From assembly GCA_003164035.1 (NCBI GenBank), contig PLRS01000074.1, positions 44,655 to 108,654 of the forward strand: a DNA stretch of 64,000 bases, in the 5' to 3' direction. Within the stretch, counting starts at the first letter, position 1. The number at the start of each line of letters is the position of its first letter. This DNA is from Bryobacterales bacterium (GTDB taxonomy: Bacteria; Acidobacteriota; Terriglobia; Bryobacterales; Bryobacteraceae). Below, piece after piece: positions 29,342 through 37,162 of the stretch. The translations under genes were made by a program, and so were the position numbers. The notes under the pieces were generated by a model. The model was not told the origin of the DNA and made no database searches. It saw only the letters and a list, made by a program, of their open reading frames with translations.

Positions 29342-29638
29342 ATGTTTGGAGCTAACTGGAACGATCCGCAAACGCTTTGGCTGAACCTGACGAACCTGGC
29401 TCTCGGATTGGTCACGTTGACGGCGCTTCTGGTAGTCGCCGGCGCGGTTGCCTGGGAACTGGTTCTGAAGCGGCGCAAAGCGCACGAATTCGGCCACATG
29501 GATGCGGACATGCGCACGATGCTTGCCGGCTCTCCCCACGTTCTGGGGGTGCCCGAGCTCGGATTGACGATGGCGGACGGCGGCGAGCCGATCGCGCCGT
29601 CTGAAAAAACAAACGGCAAGGACCAAACCGGAAAGTGA
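29342..29638 (+). CDS. Small single-pass membrane protein of the Qrc-like operon
   Basis: 98 residues beginning MFGANWNDPQTLWLNLTN. One transmembrane helix (about 17-41, LALGLVTLTALLVVAGAVAWELVL) is followed by a basic stop-transfer KRRK and a soluble cytoplasmic tail. AGGAAGGAA lies 10 bases upstream. It is the first gene of a run of seven closely spaced genes, four bases before the next, so it is probably an accessory or assembly subunit of the redox complex. No family was recognised. Confidence 0.7.
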   Translation: MFGANWNDPQTLWLNLTNLALGLVTLTALLVVAGAVAWELVLKRRKAHEFGHMDADMRTMLAGSPHVLGVPELGLTMADGGEPIAPSEKTNGKDQTGK

Positions 29639-29642
29639 CCCC

Positions 29643-30494
29643 ATGCCGTGCCCCTTTCTCAGAGAAGGCCGCGCGCGCTACTGCCACGCGGTTCCTGTCC
29701 GTAAGCTGATCCTGGAAGGACCGGGAGCGGCGGGGGGCGGGCTTTGCACCACGGCGGAGTATCGGCGGTGCGGCGTGGTCGAACAGGAGGAGGGAGCGGC
29801 CGACCGGTGCCCGCACCTGGAGGAAGTCCACGTGCAATACTGCGGCGCCTCCCCGGTCACCAAGCTGGTTCCGTTCAGCGAGTCGCAAACCTCCCCTTGC
29901 ACCGGTGGCGGGTACAAGTACTGCGATTCCTACCTGACCCGGGCGCGCCCTCACGGCGCTGGCCTTGCGCCGCGCGAGCTGCTCTACACTTCCAATCATT
30001 TGTGGCTCGAAGTGGACGAGCAGGGGCTTTGCCATATCGGGGTGGACGGGTTTCTGGCCGATCTGGCCGGGACGGTGGATCGAGTCACCTTCGCCACCGA
30101 ACGCGGCAGGCACCGCCCGGCGGTTTCGCTCAGCGTGAACGAGGTGGAGTGGCCGCTGCTGTTCCCGAATTCGCTGCTCATCCAGGCGGTGAACAGCCAC
30201 ATACGCAGCGATCCGGCGCGGCTGACGGCGGATCCCTACGGCTCCGGGTGGCTGTTCGAAGGCTGGGAGATCCCCGGCAAAACGCGCGCCGGGCTGATTG
30301 GGGGCGAACAGGCGAAGGCGTGGCAGGCCGAGGAACGCGAGCGGCTGGCGCGCGCCATCCACGCCGGCCAGGAAGAACTGTGCGCGGACGGCGGCGTTCC
30401 GGTACGGGGCGTGGCGCGGTTGCTGCCCCGCGCCGATGTGGTGCGGGTATTCCAACAATTCTTTTCGAATGCCGGCTGGCTGGCGGACGAATGA
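29643..30494 (+). CDS. Cys-rich protein with degenerate GcvH-like domain
   Basis: 283 residues, no signal peptide or membrane helix, so cytoplasmic. The N-terminal third has two copies of a four-Cys motif: C3, C14, C35, C43 and C56, C67, C86, C94 (CPxL...YC...C...C), suited to binding metal or an Fe-S cluster. Residues about 115-210 follow the glycine cleavage H-protein pattern (SNHLWLEVDEQGLCHIGVDGF...DPYGSGWLFEGW). Where GcvH has its lipoyl lysine (ESVKA), this protein reads SVNEVEW, with no lysine, so it cannot be lipoylated there. The rest is helical. Its place before the cytochrome subunit suggests a structural or assembly role in the complex. Confidence 0.7.
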   Translation: MPCPFLREGRARYCHAVPVRKLILEGPGAAGGGLCTTAEYRRCGVVEQEEGAADRCPHLEEVHVQYCGASPVTKLVPFSESQTSPCTGGGYKYCDSYLTRARPHGAGLAPRELLYTSNHLWLEVDEQGLCHIGVDGFLADLAGTVDRVTFATERGRHRPAVSLSVNEVEWPLLFPNSLLIQAVNSHIRSDPARLTADPYGSGWLFEGWEIPGKTRAGLIGGEQAKAWQAEERERLARAIHAGQEELCADGGVPVRGVARLLPRADVVRVFQQFFSNAGWLADE

Positions 30495-30504
30495 CGGCGG
30501 ACCG

Positions 30505-31095
30505 ATGAAGATGCCAAGAACCTCGATATTTTTCGGATTCGGAGTGCTGACGGCGCTGGCGGCGGGATGGCTGGTATTCCCGCGCGCGCTTTATGAGCGC
30601 CGTGAGCAGCCCTTTCGCTTCCCGCACAAGACGCATGCGGAGAAGTCCGGCACCTCCGCCTGCAACGATTGCCATACATTGGGCAAAGACGGTGAGTTCG
30701 CGGGAATTCCGAAAACCAAAGACTGTGCCACCTGTCACGCGGACCGCATGGGGTCGAGCCCGGCCGAAGCTCTGCTGGTGGATAACTACGTGAAGCGGGG
30801 ACGCGAAACCCCGTGGCTGGTCTATTCGCGCCAGCCGGCCAATGTCCGTTTTTCGCACGCCATTCACACCCGCCTGGCGGGCATGACGTGCCGCGACTGC
30901 CACGGCGCCGAGGGCGAATCCGACGCCGTGCCGGTTTACGAGCAGAATCGCATCAGCGGATATAGCCGGGACATCTGGGGCCACTCGATTTCGCGGCTGC
31001 GGCGCGCACCGGGCGACGGCATGAAGATGAGCGATTGCGAGAACTGCCATCGCCGGCACGGCGTCGATGCCGGATGCCTGGGCTGCCACGAATAG
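30505..31095 (+). CDS. Membrane-anchored pentaheme cytochrome c (QrcA-like)
   Basis: 196 residues. An uncleaved N-terminal helix (about 8-25, IFFGFGVLTALAAGWLVF) anchors a periplasmic domain with five CXXCH heme sites at C53-H57, C74-H78, C129-H133, C178-H182 and C191-H195. Additional His residues (HKTH near 41, FSHAIH near 117) can serve as distal ligands, as in class III and NrfH/Qrc-type cytochromes. In Qrc such a subunit passes electrons between periplasmic cytochromes and the Fe-S subunits. The next gene starts 12 bases downstream. Confidence 0.85.
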   Translation: MKMPRTSIFFGFGVLTALAAGWLVFPRALYERREQPFRFPHKTHAEKSGTSACNDCHTLGKDGEFAGIPKTKDCATCHADRMGSSPAEALLVDNYVKRGRETPWLVYSRQPANVRFSHAIHTRLAGMTCRDCHGAEGESDAVPVYEQNRISGYSRDIWGHSISRLRRAPGDGMKMSDCENCHRRHGVDAGCLGCHE

Positions 31096-31106
31096 GGAGA
31101 CGGAAG

Positions 31107-32774
31107 ATGATACCCACCAGACGTGATCTTTTTGCATGGGGCGGCGGCCTGGCTGGCGGCATGCTGTTCACGCCCGTGCCTTGGAAGGTGCTGGACGACG
31201 TTTCCATCTGGAGCCAGAACTGGCCGTGGATCCCCCAACCGGCGCGCGGTCCGGTGGAAGAGAAGCTTTCGTCATGCACGCTCTGCCCCAACGCCTGCGG
31301 TATGCGCGTCCGAATGGCGGCGGGCTCGCCGGTGGGTCTGTCCGGGATGGCCGGCCACCCGGTGAGCCGGGGCGCGCTATGCCCGCTGGGCTTCGGCGCG
31401 CATCAGTTGAATTGGCATCCCAGCCGGCTGCGCAACCCCCTTCATCGCGGGCGTAAGACAAGCTGGGAAGAGGCGACGGCGGCTTTCCGCAAGGCGCTTG
31501 GGGAGGGCCCGATTGCGATTATCGATGGGCGCACGGGACGCGCGGCGTCCACCGTGCTCGAGCGATTCGCGGCGGCGCACGGCGCCACTTACGCGGCCGC
31601 CCGCACGGCGGAAGAGAAGGCGCTGGGGCCGTATCAACGCTGGACCGGAGTTCCCACTTCTTCGCTGGGCTACGACCTGGAGAACGCGCGCACGATCGTC
31701 AGTTTCGGCGCTCCGCTGCTGGACGGGTGGGCGACGCCGGGGCGGTTCACGCGGCTGTGGAGCGAGCGAGCCGCCGGCTCGTCAAATCCCGCTCTGCGCT
31801 TGATCCAGGTGGAACCGGTGCAGTCGAGAACCGCGGCCTTCGCCTGGCGCTGGGTGAACGTGCGCATGGGAAGCGAATCGGCGCTGGCTTCGGCGCTGGC
31901 CCGGGTGTTGATGGAAGAACGCCTGGTGACCGCGCGCGGCCCGATGCCTTCAGAGAGCGTGAACGAGCTGGCGGGGAAGACGGGTCTCGCGGCGGAGACG
32001 ATTCAAAGCCTGGCGCGCGCGCTGGTGGAGCGGGGCCCGGTGGTTGCAATTTCGGCCGGCGACAATCCCTCGGTGGCGGCATTGAACGTGGTTCTCGGCG
32101 CGGTGGGCGCGCGAGGAGGAATCCTGCGGCGCGGCGGCGGCACCAAATCGCCGGTTCCGGTCGAGGCGCTCAGCGGCCGGATGCGCGCCGTCCTGATCGA
32201 CTCCACCGTGCCGTGGGAAGTGAGACCCAACGTCGATGCGGAAGTGTTCCGCTTCGCCGCCTGGCATGGCGGCACGACCACCGCCGACTGGCTGCTGCCC
32301 GCGCCCGGGTTCCTCGAAGCGCTGACGGATGTGCCCACGCCTCCGGCATCGGCCATCGAAACCTACGCCGTAGCCACACCCCTGATGGCGGCCGAAGGCA
32401 GCAAGGACGCCGCCCGCTTCCTGGCGGAAATCGATCCCGCCGCCGGGTCGCTGGAAGATGCCATCAAAGCGCGCTGTGAAGCCATTTATCACGCCGGCAA
32501 AGGGGGTCTCATTGGCCCCGAGCCGCAACCCGTGAAAGGTCTCGCGTCCGCCGACAAGCTCTACGAAGCGTTAGGAAATGGCGCGGTGTGGACCGGCGAG
32601 GCGGGAACGCCTGGCGGCCTGCGCTGCGACCTGAAAGAATGGCCCGGCCCCAGCGCCATGGAATCGCCGGCCGGTTGGACGGACGGTTGGACCGCGCCGG
32701 TGCTACCGCCGCTCGCGGCCAAGCTCTACCGCGAATCCGACCTGCGCCAGGCGCCGGCCAGGAGCGATGTATGA
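31107..32774 (+). CDS. Molybdopterin oxidoreductase-like subunit (QrcB-like)
   Basis: 555 residues. A Tat signal (RRDLF, residues 5-9, then a hydrophobic stretch) is followed by the motif SIWSQNWPWIP characteristic of QrcB. A [4Fe-4S] site has C57, C60, C64 and C92 (C-x2-C-x3-C-x27-C). The molybdopterin-domain fold follows, including VVAISAGDNPSVAALNVVLGAVGARGG. It is far shorter than typical Mo-bisMGD enzymes, and in characterised Qrc this subunit carries no molybdenum. I infer the same here: a structural electron-transfer subunit, not a catalytic one. Its stop overlaps the next start (ATGA). Confidence 0.85.
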   Translation: MIPTRRDLFAWGGGLAGGMLFTPVPWKVLDDVSIWSQNWPWIPQPARGPVEEKLSSCTLCPNACGMRVRMAAGSPVGLSGMAGHPVSRGALCPLGFGAHQLNWHPSRLRNPLHRGRKTSWEEATAAFRKALGEGPIAIIDGRTGRAASTVLERFAAAHGATYAAARTAEEKALGPYQRWTGVPTSSLGYDLENARTIVSFGAPLLDGWATPGRFTRLWSERAAGSSNPALRLIQVEPVQSRTAAFAWRWVNVRMGSESALASALARVLMEERLVTARGPMPSESVNELAGKTGLAAETIQSLARALVERGPVVAISAGDNPSVAALNVVLGAVGARGGILRRGGGTKSPVPVEALSGRMRAVLIDSTVPWEVRPNVDAEVFRFAAWHGGTTTADWLLPAPGFLEALTDVPTPPASAIETYAVATPLMAAEGSKDAARFLAEIDPAAGSLEDAIKARCEAIYHAGKGGLIGPEPQPVKGLASADKLYEALGNGAVWTGEAGTPGGLRCDLKEWPGPSAMESPAGWTDGWTAPVLPPLAAKLYRESDLRQAPARSDV

Positions 32775-33544
32775 AAGCCCGTTACGGAATGGCCATCGAC
32801 CTCGACCGCTGCACCGGTTGCGGCGCTTGCATGGTGGCGTGCGCGTCGGAGAACAACGTGCCGCGCCTGCCGAAGGCGACCGAGCGCACCGGCATCACCC
32901 CCATGCTGGTACACCCGGTGTCGGATGGCAAGACGGGGGTGGCGTTCATTCCCATGCCGTGCATGCAGTGCGAGGACGAGACGCCCTGCGTGAAGGTGTG
33001 CCCGCAGCAGGCGGTGGAACTGGACCGGGCCACCGGAATCGTCATGCAGATGCCGCAGCGCTGTCTGGGCTGCCGCTACTGCATGACGGCGTGCCCGTAT
33101 CACTCCCGCTACTTCAACTGGTGGGACCCGGCCTGGCCGGCCGGCATGGAAAGAACGCTGAATCCGGGGGTGGCCGTGCGCATGCGCGGCGTAGTGGAGA
33201 AGTGCAATATGTGCCATGCGCGGCTGCACGCCGCCGAAGATAAAGCCGCCGAGGCCGGAAAGCGGCAGATCGAGGCGGCCGATTACGTTCCGGCCTGCGT
33301 GGAGTCCTGCCCCACCGGTGCGATCCGGTTCGGAGATCTGAACGATGGCGCCAGCGAAGTTGCCAAAGCTTCGCGGACGCCGGAAGCCTTCCGGCTGCTG
33401 GCTCGGCTGGGCACGGAACCGAAGATCTACTACACGTCCAAGCGGGCCTGGGTGCGGGCGCTGGCGGAGCGCCATCCGGCGGGCGAACCCTCCCAACCGG
33501 CTGCTCCGGTGGCCGCCGGCGGCGGGGAGGTGAAACATGGCTAG
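32771..33544 (+). CDS. Four-cluster ferredoxin-like subunit (QrcC-like)
   Basis: 257 residues with the four Cys groups of the NrfC/DmsB/QrcC family: CTGCGACMVAC (from C14), CMQCEDETPCVKVCP, CLGCRYCMTACPY and CNMC...CVESCP. It would hold up to four cubane clusters in a wire between the QrcB-like and NrfD-like subunits. There is no Tat signal, consistent with co-export with the QrcB-like protein. Translationally coupled to the upstream gene. Confidence 0.9.
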   Translation: MKARYGMAIDLDRCTGCGACMVACASENNVPRLPKATERTGITPMLVHPVSDGKTGVAFIPMPCMQCEDETPCVKVCPQQAVELDRATGIVMQMPQRCLGCRYCMTACPYHSRYFNWWDPAWPAGMERTLNPGVAVRMRGVVEKCNMCHARLHAAEDKAAEAGKRQIEAADYVPACVESCPTGAIRFGDLNDGASEVAKASRTPEAFRLLARLGTEPKIYYTSKRAWVRALAERHPAGEPSQPAAPVAAGGGEVKHG

Positions 33545-33551
33545 CGTAAGT

Positions 33552-33600
33552 CGTGGCGCGGGCTGTCAAGCCTGCAGAGCCGAGAGTTATCTCGGCTTTT
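33552..33600. repeat. Dispersed repeat with small hairpin inside the Qrc-like operon
   Basis: GTGGCGCGGGCTGTCAAGCC recurs nearly unchanged at 51178. It is followed here by GCCGAG-AGTTAT-CTCGGC, a 6-bp hairpin followed by TTTTCTT. This lies in the only real gap (75 bases) of the operon and could attenuate transcription before the NrfD gene. Confidence 0.5.
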
Positions 33601-33619
33601 CTTCGCGGGGAGGCGCTAA

Positions 33620-34873
33620 GTGACCAGCGCTGCAACGGGCGTCGTAATGGCGGATCGGCGGCTGCAAGTGCGGGGCGAAGCGCGCAGCTCCACGGCCCGC
33701 TTCGCGCTCTGGCTGGCGCCCTGGGTGCTCCTGCTGGCGCTCGGAATCTACGCCGGCGGTCTGTGCCTTTATTACGGGCTGAACCAGACCAACATGAATA
33801 ACCGCTTTGCCTTCGGGTTGTGGATCTTTCTCGACCTGGGCATCATCGCGCTGGGAGCGGGAGCCTTTTTCACCGGCTTCCTGGTTTATATTCTGGGCCG
33901 CACGGAGTTGAAGCCGGTGTTGAACAGCGCCGTGGTGCTGGGGTTCATCTGTTACAGCGGTGCCATGGCGGTGCTGATGATCGACGTGGGCCAGCCGCTG
34001 CGCGCCTGGTTCACCTTCTGGCACCCCAACGTCCATTCCATGCTGACCGAGGTGACCTTCTGCATTACCTGTTATCTGCTGGTGCTGACGCTCGAATACA
34101 TCCCCGTGGTGCTGCGCAACCGGCAGTTGCGGAAGCTGCCGCCGTTTGTGGTGTTCGAGCACCGGATGCACTTGCTGATGCCGGTGCTGGCGGGAATCGG
34201 AACCCTGCTGTCCTTCTTTCACCAGGGTTCGCTGGGCGGCCTGTATGGCGTGCTGCGCGGCCGGCCCTTCGCCTTCCGCCAGGGTTTTGCCATCTGGCCT
34301 TCCACCTTCTTCCTCTTCATTCTCTCGGCGGTTGCGGTGGGGCCCAGCTTTCTGATGCTGGTCACCGCGGCGGCGCGGAAGTTGACCGGGCGCAAGCTGG
34401 TGCCGTCGAACGTGTTCCCGCGGCTGGGGTTCATCTCCGGAGTGCTGCTGGCGGCCTACGTGGCGCTCAAAGCCGTCGACACTCTCATCTGGCTGAACGT
34501 GACCTCGCCCGCGGTGGGCTTCGCTCCCTGGGAATACTATGCCTACAAACCGTTTGGCACCACGCTGCTGTTCGCCGAAATCGTGGTCTTCGGCTTGCTG
34601 CCGGCGGTGCTTTTGGTTCAGGGCAGATGGCTGCTGCCGGGCGCCGCACTGGCCTGTTGCGGCATTTTGTTGAACCGGTTCGTGCTCACGGTGCAGACCC
34701 TGGCGCTGCCCACCCTCTCGTTCGATCCGTTCCTCAGTTACACGCCGAGCTGGCAGGAGGTGGCGAGCTTCGGCGGCGTGGTGGCGTATGGCGTGATCCT
34801 GTATTCGCTGTCTTATCGATACCTGCCGTTGTTCCCACAATCAAAGGAGCAGACTCATGTTTCCGGGCGTTGA
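33620..34873 (+). CDS. NrfD/PsrC-family membrane quinone subunit (QrcD-like)
   Basis: 417 residues with about ten transmembrane helices, the NrfD-type quinone-interacting integral membrane protein. The conserved segments FGLWIFLDLGIIALGAGAFFTGF, GQPLRAWFTFWHPNVHSML and GTLLSFFHQGSLGG fit the long NrfD form found in Qrc and alternative complex III. It would exchange electrons with menaquinone. GTG 33620 follows GGGGAGG; ATG 33647 is an alternative. The 3' end overlaps the next gene by 17 bases. Confidence 0.9.
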   Translation: MTSAATGVVMADRRLQVRGEARSSTARFALWLAPWVLLLALGIYAGGLCLYYGLNQTNMNNRFAFGLWIFLDLGIIALGAGAFFTGFLVYILGRTELKPVLNSAVVLGFICYSGAMAVLMIDVGQPLRAWFTFWHPNVHSMLTEVTFCITCYLLVLTLEYIPVVLRNRQLRKLPPFVVFEHRMHLLMPVLAGIGTLLSFFHQGSLGGLYGVLRGRPFAFRQGFAIWPSTFFLFILSAVAVGPSFLMLVTAAARKLTGRKLVPSNVFPRLGFISGVLLAAYVALKAVDTLIWLNVTSPAVGFAPWEYYAYKPFGTTLLFAEIVVFGLLPAVLLVQGRWLLPGAALACCGILLNRFVLTVQTLALPTLSFDPFLSYTPSWQEVASFGGVVAYGVILYSLSYRYLPLFPQSKEQTHVSGR

Positions 34874-35669
34874 CGGATTTCACTGGACTTTCGGGCACAT
34901 TTTCTTCCTGTCGGTATTCGTCGCGGTGGCGCTGACCATCCTGGTTACGCTGGCACTGGCAACCCTCCGAACGGCCCGCGACCTGCGAACCGGCAAGGCG
35001 GCCGGCATCTGCTGGCACGCCGACTTCGGCGAATTGCCTGAGGCGGAGCGCCGCTGCCGGCACGAACTGGCGGGCCGGGTGGAGCACCGCACCTGTCCCA
35101 ATGCGTTCGATTGCCGAAGCTGCCCCGACTATGCCAGGTTCGCGGACCTGGCGCCTACTGTCGAGCCGCGCACCTATGGAATGAACTATCCCGGCGACCG
35201 CTTCTATCATCGCGGCCACACCTGGGTACGGCCGGAGACCGACGGCACCTTCGCCGTGGGCTTGGACGACATGGCGGAGCGCATTGTCGGCAAACCCGAC
35301 ACGGTCGAGTTGCCCGCCGCCGGCACCGAGATCGAGCTGCAGGGCCCGGCCTGGAAGATGTCGAAGAACCGCCAGACGATCCGCGTGCGGGCGCCGCTGG
35401 AAGGCACGGTGGTCGCTACTGGCGGCGCCGGGCAGGGATGGTATCTGAAGCTGCGCCCGCGCGGACAGGCCAACCTGCGCCACCTGCTTCGCGGCGCCGA
35501 AGTTCCCGGCTGGTTGGCCGGCGAGCTCGACCGCCTACAGCTCCAGTTGACGCAACCCGATTCGTCTCCGAGCCTGGCCGATGGCGGCATCCTGGTGAGC
35601 GGCCTGATGGACGCCATGCCCAAAGCGGATTGGGACGCGGCGCTGGCGGCTACGTTCCTGGAGCCGTAG
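34857..35669 (+). CDS. Membrane-anchored GcvH-like protein lacking the lipoyl lysine
   Basis: 270 residues. One transmembrane helix (about 13-40) is followed by a Cys-containing linker (CWHADF, RRCRHEL, RTCPNAFDCRSCPDY) and a GcvH-like barrel (about 110-200, FYHRGHTWVRPETDGTFAVGLDDMAERIVG ... RAPLEGTVVATGG). At the lipoyl position the sequence reads SKNRQTIRVRAP, with Arg in the aligned site, so lipoylation is not expected. It closes the operon and mirrors the soluble GcvH-like protein at its start. A scaffold or regulatory role in the redox complex is inferred. Confidence 0.72.
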   Translation: MFPGVDGFHWTFGHIFFLSVFVAVALTILVTLALATLRTARDLRTGKAAGICWHADFGELPEAERRCRHELAGRVEHRTCPNAFDCRSCPDYARFADLAPTVEPRTYGMNYPGDRFYHRGHTWVRPETDGTFAVGLDDMAERIVGKPDTVELPAAGTEIELQGPAWKMSKNRQTIRVRAPLEGTVVATGGAGQGWYLKLRPRGQANLRHLLRGAEVPGWLAGELDRLQLQLTQPDSSPSLADGGILVSGLMDAMPKADWDAALAATFLEP

Positions 35670-36634: not shown

Positions 36635-37162
36635 TCAGCCGTTCCGGGCGGTGGTCGTCCGCCCGCGTGAGGACTTTACCGGCAAAGGCTCTCCCCAGCG
36701 TTCCAGGGCATTGGTGGCGGTGGCCCGCTCGTAATTTCGTACGTATGCGCCCATCATTCGGTCGGTGACGCAGATATGATCCTGCAGCCATCCGTCCAGG
36801 AACTCCAAAAGTAGTTCCGCGGCCTCGGATTCACCGCTTTCGACGAGAGGAGCGAATAGCTTCAGGCGCTTTCGGGCGGTATTGTGCTGCTGTTTGTGCC
36901 AACCATAGGCGGAGTACTTGACAGACTCCATCAGCCACTCCTCATGCAAAAAATGCTCCTCCGCGTGAGCGATTAAGGTGGACAGATGGTCCTTCACCTC
37001 CGCCGTAGCCTGGCTGGCAACCGCCTTCTCCAGTCCATCCGCAATCCGGAACAAGTCACGATGTTCCGCATCGATCTGCGTCAGGAAAACCTCGTGTTGC
37101 TTACCCCACTCGAAATTGCGCATACTCCAATCTACCGTATTCAAGGGAAACGCATCGATCAC
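36635..37162 (-). CDS. Bacteriohemerythrin-like protein
   Basis: 175 residues with the hemerythrin four-helix bundle and diiron ligands: DAEHRDLF, HAEEHFLHEEWLM, HKQQHN and LDGWLQDHICVTD. Such proteins bind O2 or sense it near chemotaxis and respiratory systems. The domain itself starts MRNFEWGKQHEV at ATG 37123; the frame opens earlier at GTG 37162, where it overlaps the stop of the upstream isomerase gene (GTGA). I list the longer form because four-base overlaps are common in this genome. Confidence 0.85.
   Translation of the reverse strand: MIDAFPLNTVDWSMRNFEWGKQHEVFLTQIDAEHRDLFRIADGLEKAVASQATAEVKDHLSTLIAHAEEHFLHEEWLMESVKYSAYGWHKQQHNTARKRLKLFAPLVESGESEAAELLLEFLDGWLQDHICVTDRMMGAYVRNYERATATNALERWGEPLPVKSSRGRTTTARNG

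Follow-up and report, generated by a model that had tools for sequence, protein, structure and literature searches.

In published accounts, Qrc is a complex of four subunits found in sulfate reducers and encoded in Nitratidesulfovibrio vulgaris by the genes qrcABCD. The peripheral subunits of the studied complex lie on the periplasmic side (PMC8076601), and N. vulgaris variants of its membrane subunit QrcD at D70, Y110, S138 and Y150 have lost formate/sulfate growth and electron transfer (PMC13059093). A 2021 review placed QrcD solely in Deltaproteobacteria (PMC8076601), and later papers report Qrc in an acidobacterium (PMC10564751) and in FCB phyla (PMC9727166). The stretch considered here, called the window, comprises 64,000 nucleotides from a Bryobacterales bacterium (Acidobacteriota; assembly GCA_003164035.1, contig PLRS01000074.1). 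Its forward strand holds at 29342-35669 a cassette of seven tightly spaced genes, in the order A, B, QrcA, QrcB, QrcC, QrcD, G, which adds three accessory proteins to a Qrc-type core. Two of them, B and G, are GcvH-fold proteins as judged by sequence profiles and structural models, and the association of A, B and G with Qrc genes is not due to chance. With about even confidence, the cassette is proposed to encode a cytochrome c:menaquinone oxidoreductase of the Qrc type that has a dedicated module on its cytoplasmic side, with A, B and G as stable subunits.

The Qrc-type nature of the core had been proposed in an earlier note on this DNA and is supported by profile searches, the NCBIfam Qrc models being the top matches for all four core proteins. 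Only QrcA exceeds the curated cut-off (NF041781, 210 bits vs 180). QrcB (NF041783, 230 vs 440), QrcC (NF041782, 330 vs 400) and QrcD (NF041784, 543 vs 570) remain under theirs, the last cut-off being exceeded by some relatives with the same cassette, in 3 of 297 and 6 of 247 genomes of two phylum samples. Residue conservation was counted over open reading frames (ORFs) within set length ranges, window included (50 QrcA, 65 QrcB, 59 QrcC and 55 A sequences). The ten heme cysteines of QrcA are kept in 50/50 sequences, the four motif cysteines of QrcB in 64/65 and each of the 16 cysteines of QrcC in 58/59 or 59/59. A twin-arginine pattern is found in 55 of 66 QrcB ORFs. The window QrcD is identical to DVU0692 at 18 of 25 listed residues with a single offset of +2, to be compared with 0-3 identities at 17 other offsets, and it retains D72, Y112, S140 and Y152, the counterparts of N. 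vulgaris D70, Y110, S138 and Y150. Since these quinone and proton-path residues are retained, the complex most likely still moves electrons between cytochromes of the periplasm and menaquinone, in whichever direction in vivo, and takes its protons from the cytoplasm.

Compared with N. vulgaris QrcABCD, the gene order is the same, but three extra genes surround the four known ones. The studied QrcA has six hemes (PMC8076601), whereas five CXXCH motifs are present here, and the studied QrcB is said to be devoid of redox cofactor (PMC13059093), in contrast with the four cysteines conserved in this family. Alternative complex III also resembles the cassette, with a pentaheme cytochrome, molybdopterin-like and Fe-S parts and an NrfD subunit (PMC8076601). 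It differs by its ActB fusion and by a second NrfD-type subunit, ActF, where the present cassette has separate QrcB and QrcC and one NrfD gene.

The association of the Qrc core with A, B and G was followed through their distribution. A genome collection was scanned with an alignment of five QrcD proteins, which gave 157 relatives, of which 80 were kept as loci. Their titles refer to Acidobacteria groups, Ignavibacteriae/Bacteroidetes, Kryptoniota, KSB1 and Eisenbacteria; none is titled Desulfobacterota, and the four-gene Desulfobacterota operon used for comparison is taken from published work (PMC13059093). G follows QrcD wherever the sequence continues for 900 bases or more past QrcD (76 of 76 loci). 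The full seven-gene order is observed in 48 of the 50 loci whose sequence extends 5.6 kb or more on the 5' side of QrcD, and relatives of A occupy the first position in all 48. The two exceptions are L077, where the contig ends before G, and L093, where no A, B or QrcA was found, perhaps because of a misjoined contig. Tandem G-type genes were seen after QrcD at L123 (4697-6310) and L126 (2392-3993).

Two phylum samples lead to the same picture. The sample of the window's phylum comprises 297 genomes, five of which have a Qrc-type QrcD (at least 543 bits, next match 176). Full-length G (at least 370 bits, next 150) is present in exactly these five, and full-length B (at least 317 bits, next 95) in the same five plus G262. 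The other sample, of 247 genomes, covers the phylum to which G318 belongs, G318 being the Ignavibacteria-titled genome of locus L097; in it, QrcD (at least 567 bits, next 178) and G (at least 340 bits, next 114) are found, adjacent, in the same nine. These samples overlap the 80 loci (G318, G320, G327 and G331), and the counts ignore relatedness. Between G or B and the Qrc proteins, tree distances are also correlated (r 0.58-0.78), in a comparison made without negative control on the 31 loci where each of the five proteins had a suitable length. The non-random co-occurrence, a check that had been set beforehand, is thus clear from these counts. Plasmid records yielded only distant NrfD/HybB-type matches to QrcD (17 records, all below 60% identity; best 25% over 86%).

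Both the sequences of B and G and their predicted structures, the second check set beforehand, bear out the GcvH-like nature claimed in the earlier note. The Pfam family PF01597 (GCV_H) matches B at E 5.2e-6 and G at E 8.3e-9, both above the Pfam cut-off. AlphaFold (AF2) models, computed from input alignments of 77 rows for G and 55 for B, window included, reached a predicted local distance difference test (pLDDT) score of 90.1 and a predicted template modelling (pTM) score of 0.83 for G, and 89.5 and 0.84 for B. A Foldseek search of the PDB returned GcvH as the top match for B (E 5.8e-8) and for G (E 1.0e-8), and the 22 matches with E <=0.001 obtained per model are all GcvH or GcvH-like chains, some of them from complexes with lipoyl synthase or lipoate ligase. 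The loss of the lipoyl lysine was likewise found as announced, the position being Arg in G and Glu in B. In G, this is R172 by ungapped alignment with Escherichia coli GcvH. The hairpin expected to carry the lysine is formed in the G model by strands 164-170 and 173-178 with N171-R172 at its tip, and in the B model by strands 160-165 and 168-173 with N166-E167 at the tip. A similarity of G to HyaE (E 0.32 and 0.097) was put down to chance.

The cysteine clusters also noted before are conserved sets, counted on 80 complete G ORFs of more than 200 residues (out of 82 found) and 58 B ORFs (out of 60), each time with the window sequence added. C67, C80, C86 and C89 of G are invariant in 81/81 aligned sequences. 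The eight cysteines of B form two tandem modules, each cysteine being present in 56-58 of 59. Stand-alone 74-residue proteins with four cysteines are encoded directly 5' of a QrcC-like gene at L165 (5203-5427) and L172 (11406-11630). Their matches to the B model are weak (28 and 31 bits); B therefore resembles a fusion of two such modules with a GcvH-like domain. Apart from their common fold, B and G differ from GcvH by the missing lysine in the window copies, the added cysteine modules, a DGG segment and, in G, a membrane anchor, and Qrc genes replace gcvT and gcvP as neighbours. The two proteins were said to frame the operon; they do bracket QrcABCD, but the outermost 5' gene is A, beyond B.

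This third accessory protein, A, had not been set apart in the earlier note, which likewise does not give the predicted location of the three proteins. Lys and Arg are more numerous after the membrane helix than before it in 78 of 80 G sequences (means 3.8 vs 0.2) and in 57 of 57 A sequences. From these charge patterns, the positive-inside rule predicts a cytoplasmic location for the soluble parts of A and G, opposite the periplasmic QrcABC. B is predicted to lie on the same side; it has no membrane helix, the top mean hydropathy over 19 residues being 1.70 among 58 sequences. Polar and aromatic residues are conserved within the helices of A and G, which hints at a constant partner in the membrane. 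ADGG is found in 56/57 A, 41/61 B and 77/82 G ORFs vs 73 of 8632 unlabelled ORFs, many of the latter being NtrC regulators that themselves contain ADGG. DGG is invariant across 55 aligned B sequences, and these segments might act as a docking element. A Pfam search with A gave nothing above cut-off. A family without database homologues has been reported next to qrcABCD in Blakebacterota, whose genomes largely lack DsrABC (PMC9727166, 2022), and may correspond to A; the main text of this paper mentions neither GcvH nor glycine cleavage. A literature search, with most subscription papers and preprints outside its scope, found among the matches listed no paper linking GcvH-like proteins to Qrc or NrfD; glycine cleavage and NrfD are both mentioned in PMC3686733 and in PMC9386147, in the latter as unrelated matters in the passages concerned.

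The genes of the cassette are listed in Table 1. They are separated by 4 (A/B), 10 (B/QrcA), 11 (QrcA/QrcB) and 75 bases (QrcC/QrcD), with overlaps of 4 bases for QrcB/QrcC and 17 bases for QrcD/G.

Table 1. Features of the Qrc-type cassette and its 3' side in the window (gene coordinates include the stop codon)
Feature	Position	Strand	Description
A	29342-29638	+	98 aa, single membrane helix, tail predicted to be cytoplasmic, with LGLTMADGGE stretch at its end
B	29643-30494	+	283 aa, soluble, two 4-Cys modules, predicted GcvH fold without lipoyl Lys, DGG near C-terminus
QrcA	30505-31095	+	Membrane-anchored pentaheme cytochrome c, 5 CXXCH
QrcB	31107-32774	+	555 aa, short molybdopterin-oxidoreductase-like, twin-arginine leader, CxxCxxxC...C motif, contains SIWSQNWPWIP
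QrcC	32771-33544	+	Subunit resembling four-cluster ferredoxins, 16 Cys
QrcD	33620-34873	+	NrfD-type membrane subunit, GTG start
G	34857-35669	+	270 aa, single membrane helix, motif of four Cys, predicted GcvH fold without lipoyl Lys, DGG near C-terminus
Hemerythrin-like protein	36635-37162	-	Shortly 3' of the cassette, identified by eye

GcvH-like proteins are not restricted to this cassette. Other QrcC-like/NrfD operons of the window's phylum contain representatives of about 220-280 residues, in which the lipoyl position is not Lys in 11 of the 12 inspected; among eight aligned from other loci, seven have DGG and one DGA. The window's own genome contains a second set (L173, 1-2889; G000:C154), with tandem GcvH-like genes encoding DGG and devoid of the lipoyl Lys, followed by a QrcC-like gene and a partial NrfD-like gene cut by the contig edge. 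Of 65 second-tier GcvH-like hits, 39 have an NrfD hit no more than 10 kb away, a count made without random-placement control. Tentatively, non-lipoylated, cytoplasm-facing, DGG-tailed GcvH folds might be a general class of partners of NrfD complexes; in Qrc, two of them together with a one-helix DGG protein would form a metal-bearing module linking cytoplasmic redox or protons to the quinone site of QrcD.

Regulatory genes are frequent on the 3' side of the cassette, mostly on the opposite strand. Where this side extends for 1.5 kb or more, a putative NtrC-type regulator is encoded in 35 of 63 loci, and where it extends for 3.5 kb or more, a putative kinase in 29 of 54. A putative archaemetzincin-like gene is present at 26 loci. 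CXXCH is present in 31 of 38 of these kinases. The presumed trio of NtrC, histidine kinase and archaemetzincin-like genes recurs by the Qrc cassette and by other NrfD/GcvH-like operons (L090, 12191-15959; L042, L043, L044, L045). Inspection by eye found none of the three adjoining the window's cassette.

In the arrangement favoured here, electrons from the periplasm would enter at the QrcA hemes and pass through QrcB and QrcC to menaquinone in QrcD, with protons drawn, as in Nitratidesulfovibrio Qrc, from the cytoplasm. QrcD would have A and G beside it in the membrane, their soluble parts in the cytoplasm, and B would dock on A and G, with the DGG segments common to the three proteins as docking elements. 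The GcvH folds would be non-lipoylated scaffolds, and the cysteine sets of B and G are proposed to bind metal, either Zn or Fe-S. A, B and G would then tune or couple the cytoplasmic face of QrcD. Several points weigh against this arrangement. The studied Qrc works with four subunits (PMC13059093), which makes A, B and G dispensable for the basic reaction, and their interaction, metal binding and topology are themselves predictions. In G262 (L157, 8753-10085; G262:C199), A and B stand mid-contig by an NtrC-like regulator. No QrcA-D or G was found there within the 12 kb read, and no Qrc-type QrcD genome-wide (best E 1.2e-39). Deletion is the simplest reading of this case, and the case shows that A and B can persist alone. 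As for the second-tier GcvH-like hits, 26 of 65 have no NrfD hit on their contig, at least six of which adjoin QrcC-like or NrfD-like genes (G228:C132, G245:C25, G000:C154, G242:C748). Finally, a 383-residue protein combining a B-like cysteine module with a GcvH domain (L159, 7583-8734; G022:C7) adjoins NtrC-like, archaemetzincin-like and ferredoxin-like genes, without NrfD match.

One alternative, in which B and G would act as usual H proteins with lipoate attached or as LbpA-like lipoate carriers, appears highly improbable. The LbpA lipoate-binding proteins of Hdr-like sulfur oxidation are reportedly GcvH-like, tied to a redox system and loaded with lipoate, and the PF01597 matches above cut-off would fit such a role. 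Lys is also encountered at the lipoyl column of G in 7/81 sequences and, two residues before it, at column 170 in 52/81. However, Lys is rare at both aligned lipoyl columns (1/59 at column 167 of B), so that neither family has a conserved Lys there, unlike LbpA, and the window copies have Arg and Glu. Lipoylation at Lys170 of G looks unlikely from the model, in which this residue lies on a strand and not at the hairpin tip. The gcvH equivalog TIGR00527 gives 34 (G) and 28 (B) bits, far from its cut-off of 116.

A close second to stable subunits, possible although the less probable of the two, is that A, B and G are assembly factors, which would hold QrcB and QrcC in the cytoplasm and mature them, through cluster insertion and quality control, before the folded pair is exported by the twin-arginine translocation (Tat) system, and would then leave the completed complex. 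Tat substrates with Fe-S clusters are often served by dedicated cytoplasmic helpers, and the predicted cytoplasmic side of A, B and G, the cysteine-rich nature of B and G and the twin-arginine pattern of QrcB all agree with this role. The membrane anchoring of G and A through conserved helices speaks against it, as does the fact that the four-gene Qrc operon of N. vulgaris complements a deletion without such genes in the operon (PMC13059093); the weak HyaE match of G (E 0.1-0.3) is within chance. The third choice, rather unlikely, is a relay in which B and G would pass a redox or metal signal to gene control through the NtrC/heme-kinase pair. The frequency of these regulators and of CXXCH in the kinases fits such a relay, and so does the G022 protein, found beside NtrC and archaemetzincin-like genes with no NrfD nearby. 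Yet the regulator is absent in 28 of 63 loci and by the window's cassette, while A, B and G are near-constant. The stable-subunit arrangement remains the preferred one.

The carriers of the cassette are mostly not sulfate reducers, as far as their gene content indicates. This was assessed in 40 genomes: five are the carriers of the phylum sample, among them the window's own genome, and the other 35 stem from as many of the 80 loci. Heme-copper oxidase subunit I is encoded in 38 of the 40, and dsrA exceeds its cut-off in five and not in the other 35, in line with the aerobic-type surroundings announced in the earlier note and in contrast with the sulfate reducers from which QrcABCD is known. 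The window's genome has a heme-copper oxidase and no dsrA above cut-off. Transcription of qrcABCD under anoxic conditions has been reported for the metagenome-assembled genome CO124 (PMC10564751). The idea that the window's genome lacks a canonical gcvH was considered and rejected: none was found above cut-off, yet the match to gcvP (glycine dehydrogenase, GDC-P) begins at base 1 of a contig (G000:C131:1-1931), and gcvH may be hidden in an assembly gap.

The four-subunit complex known from sulfate reducers thus has a seven-gene form in several other phyla. Should A, B and G prove to be subunits, they would represent a cytoplasmic module gained by a respiratory complex and built on a fold that usually carries lipoate, and named genes would be at hand for how NrfD-type subunits are served or controlled from the cytoplasmic side.

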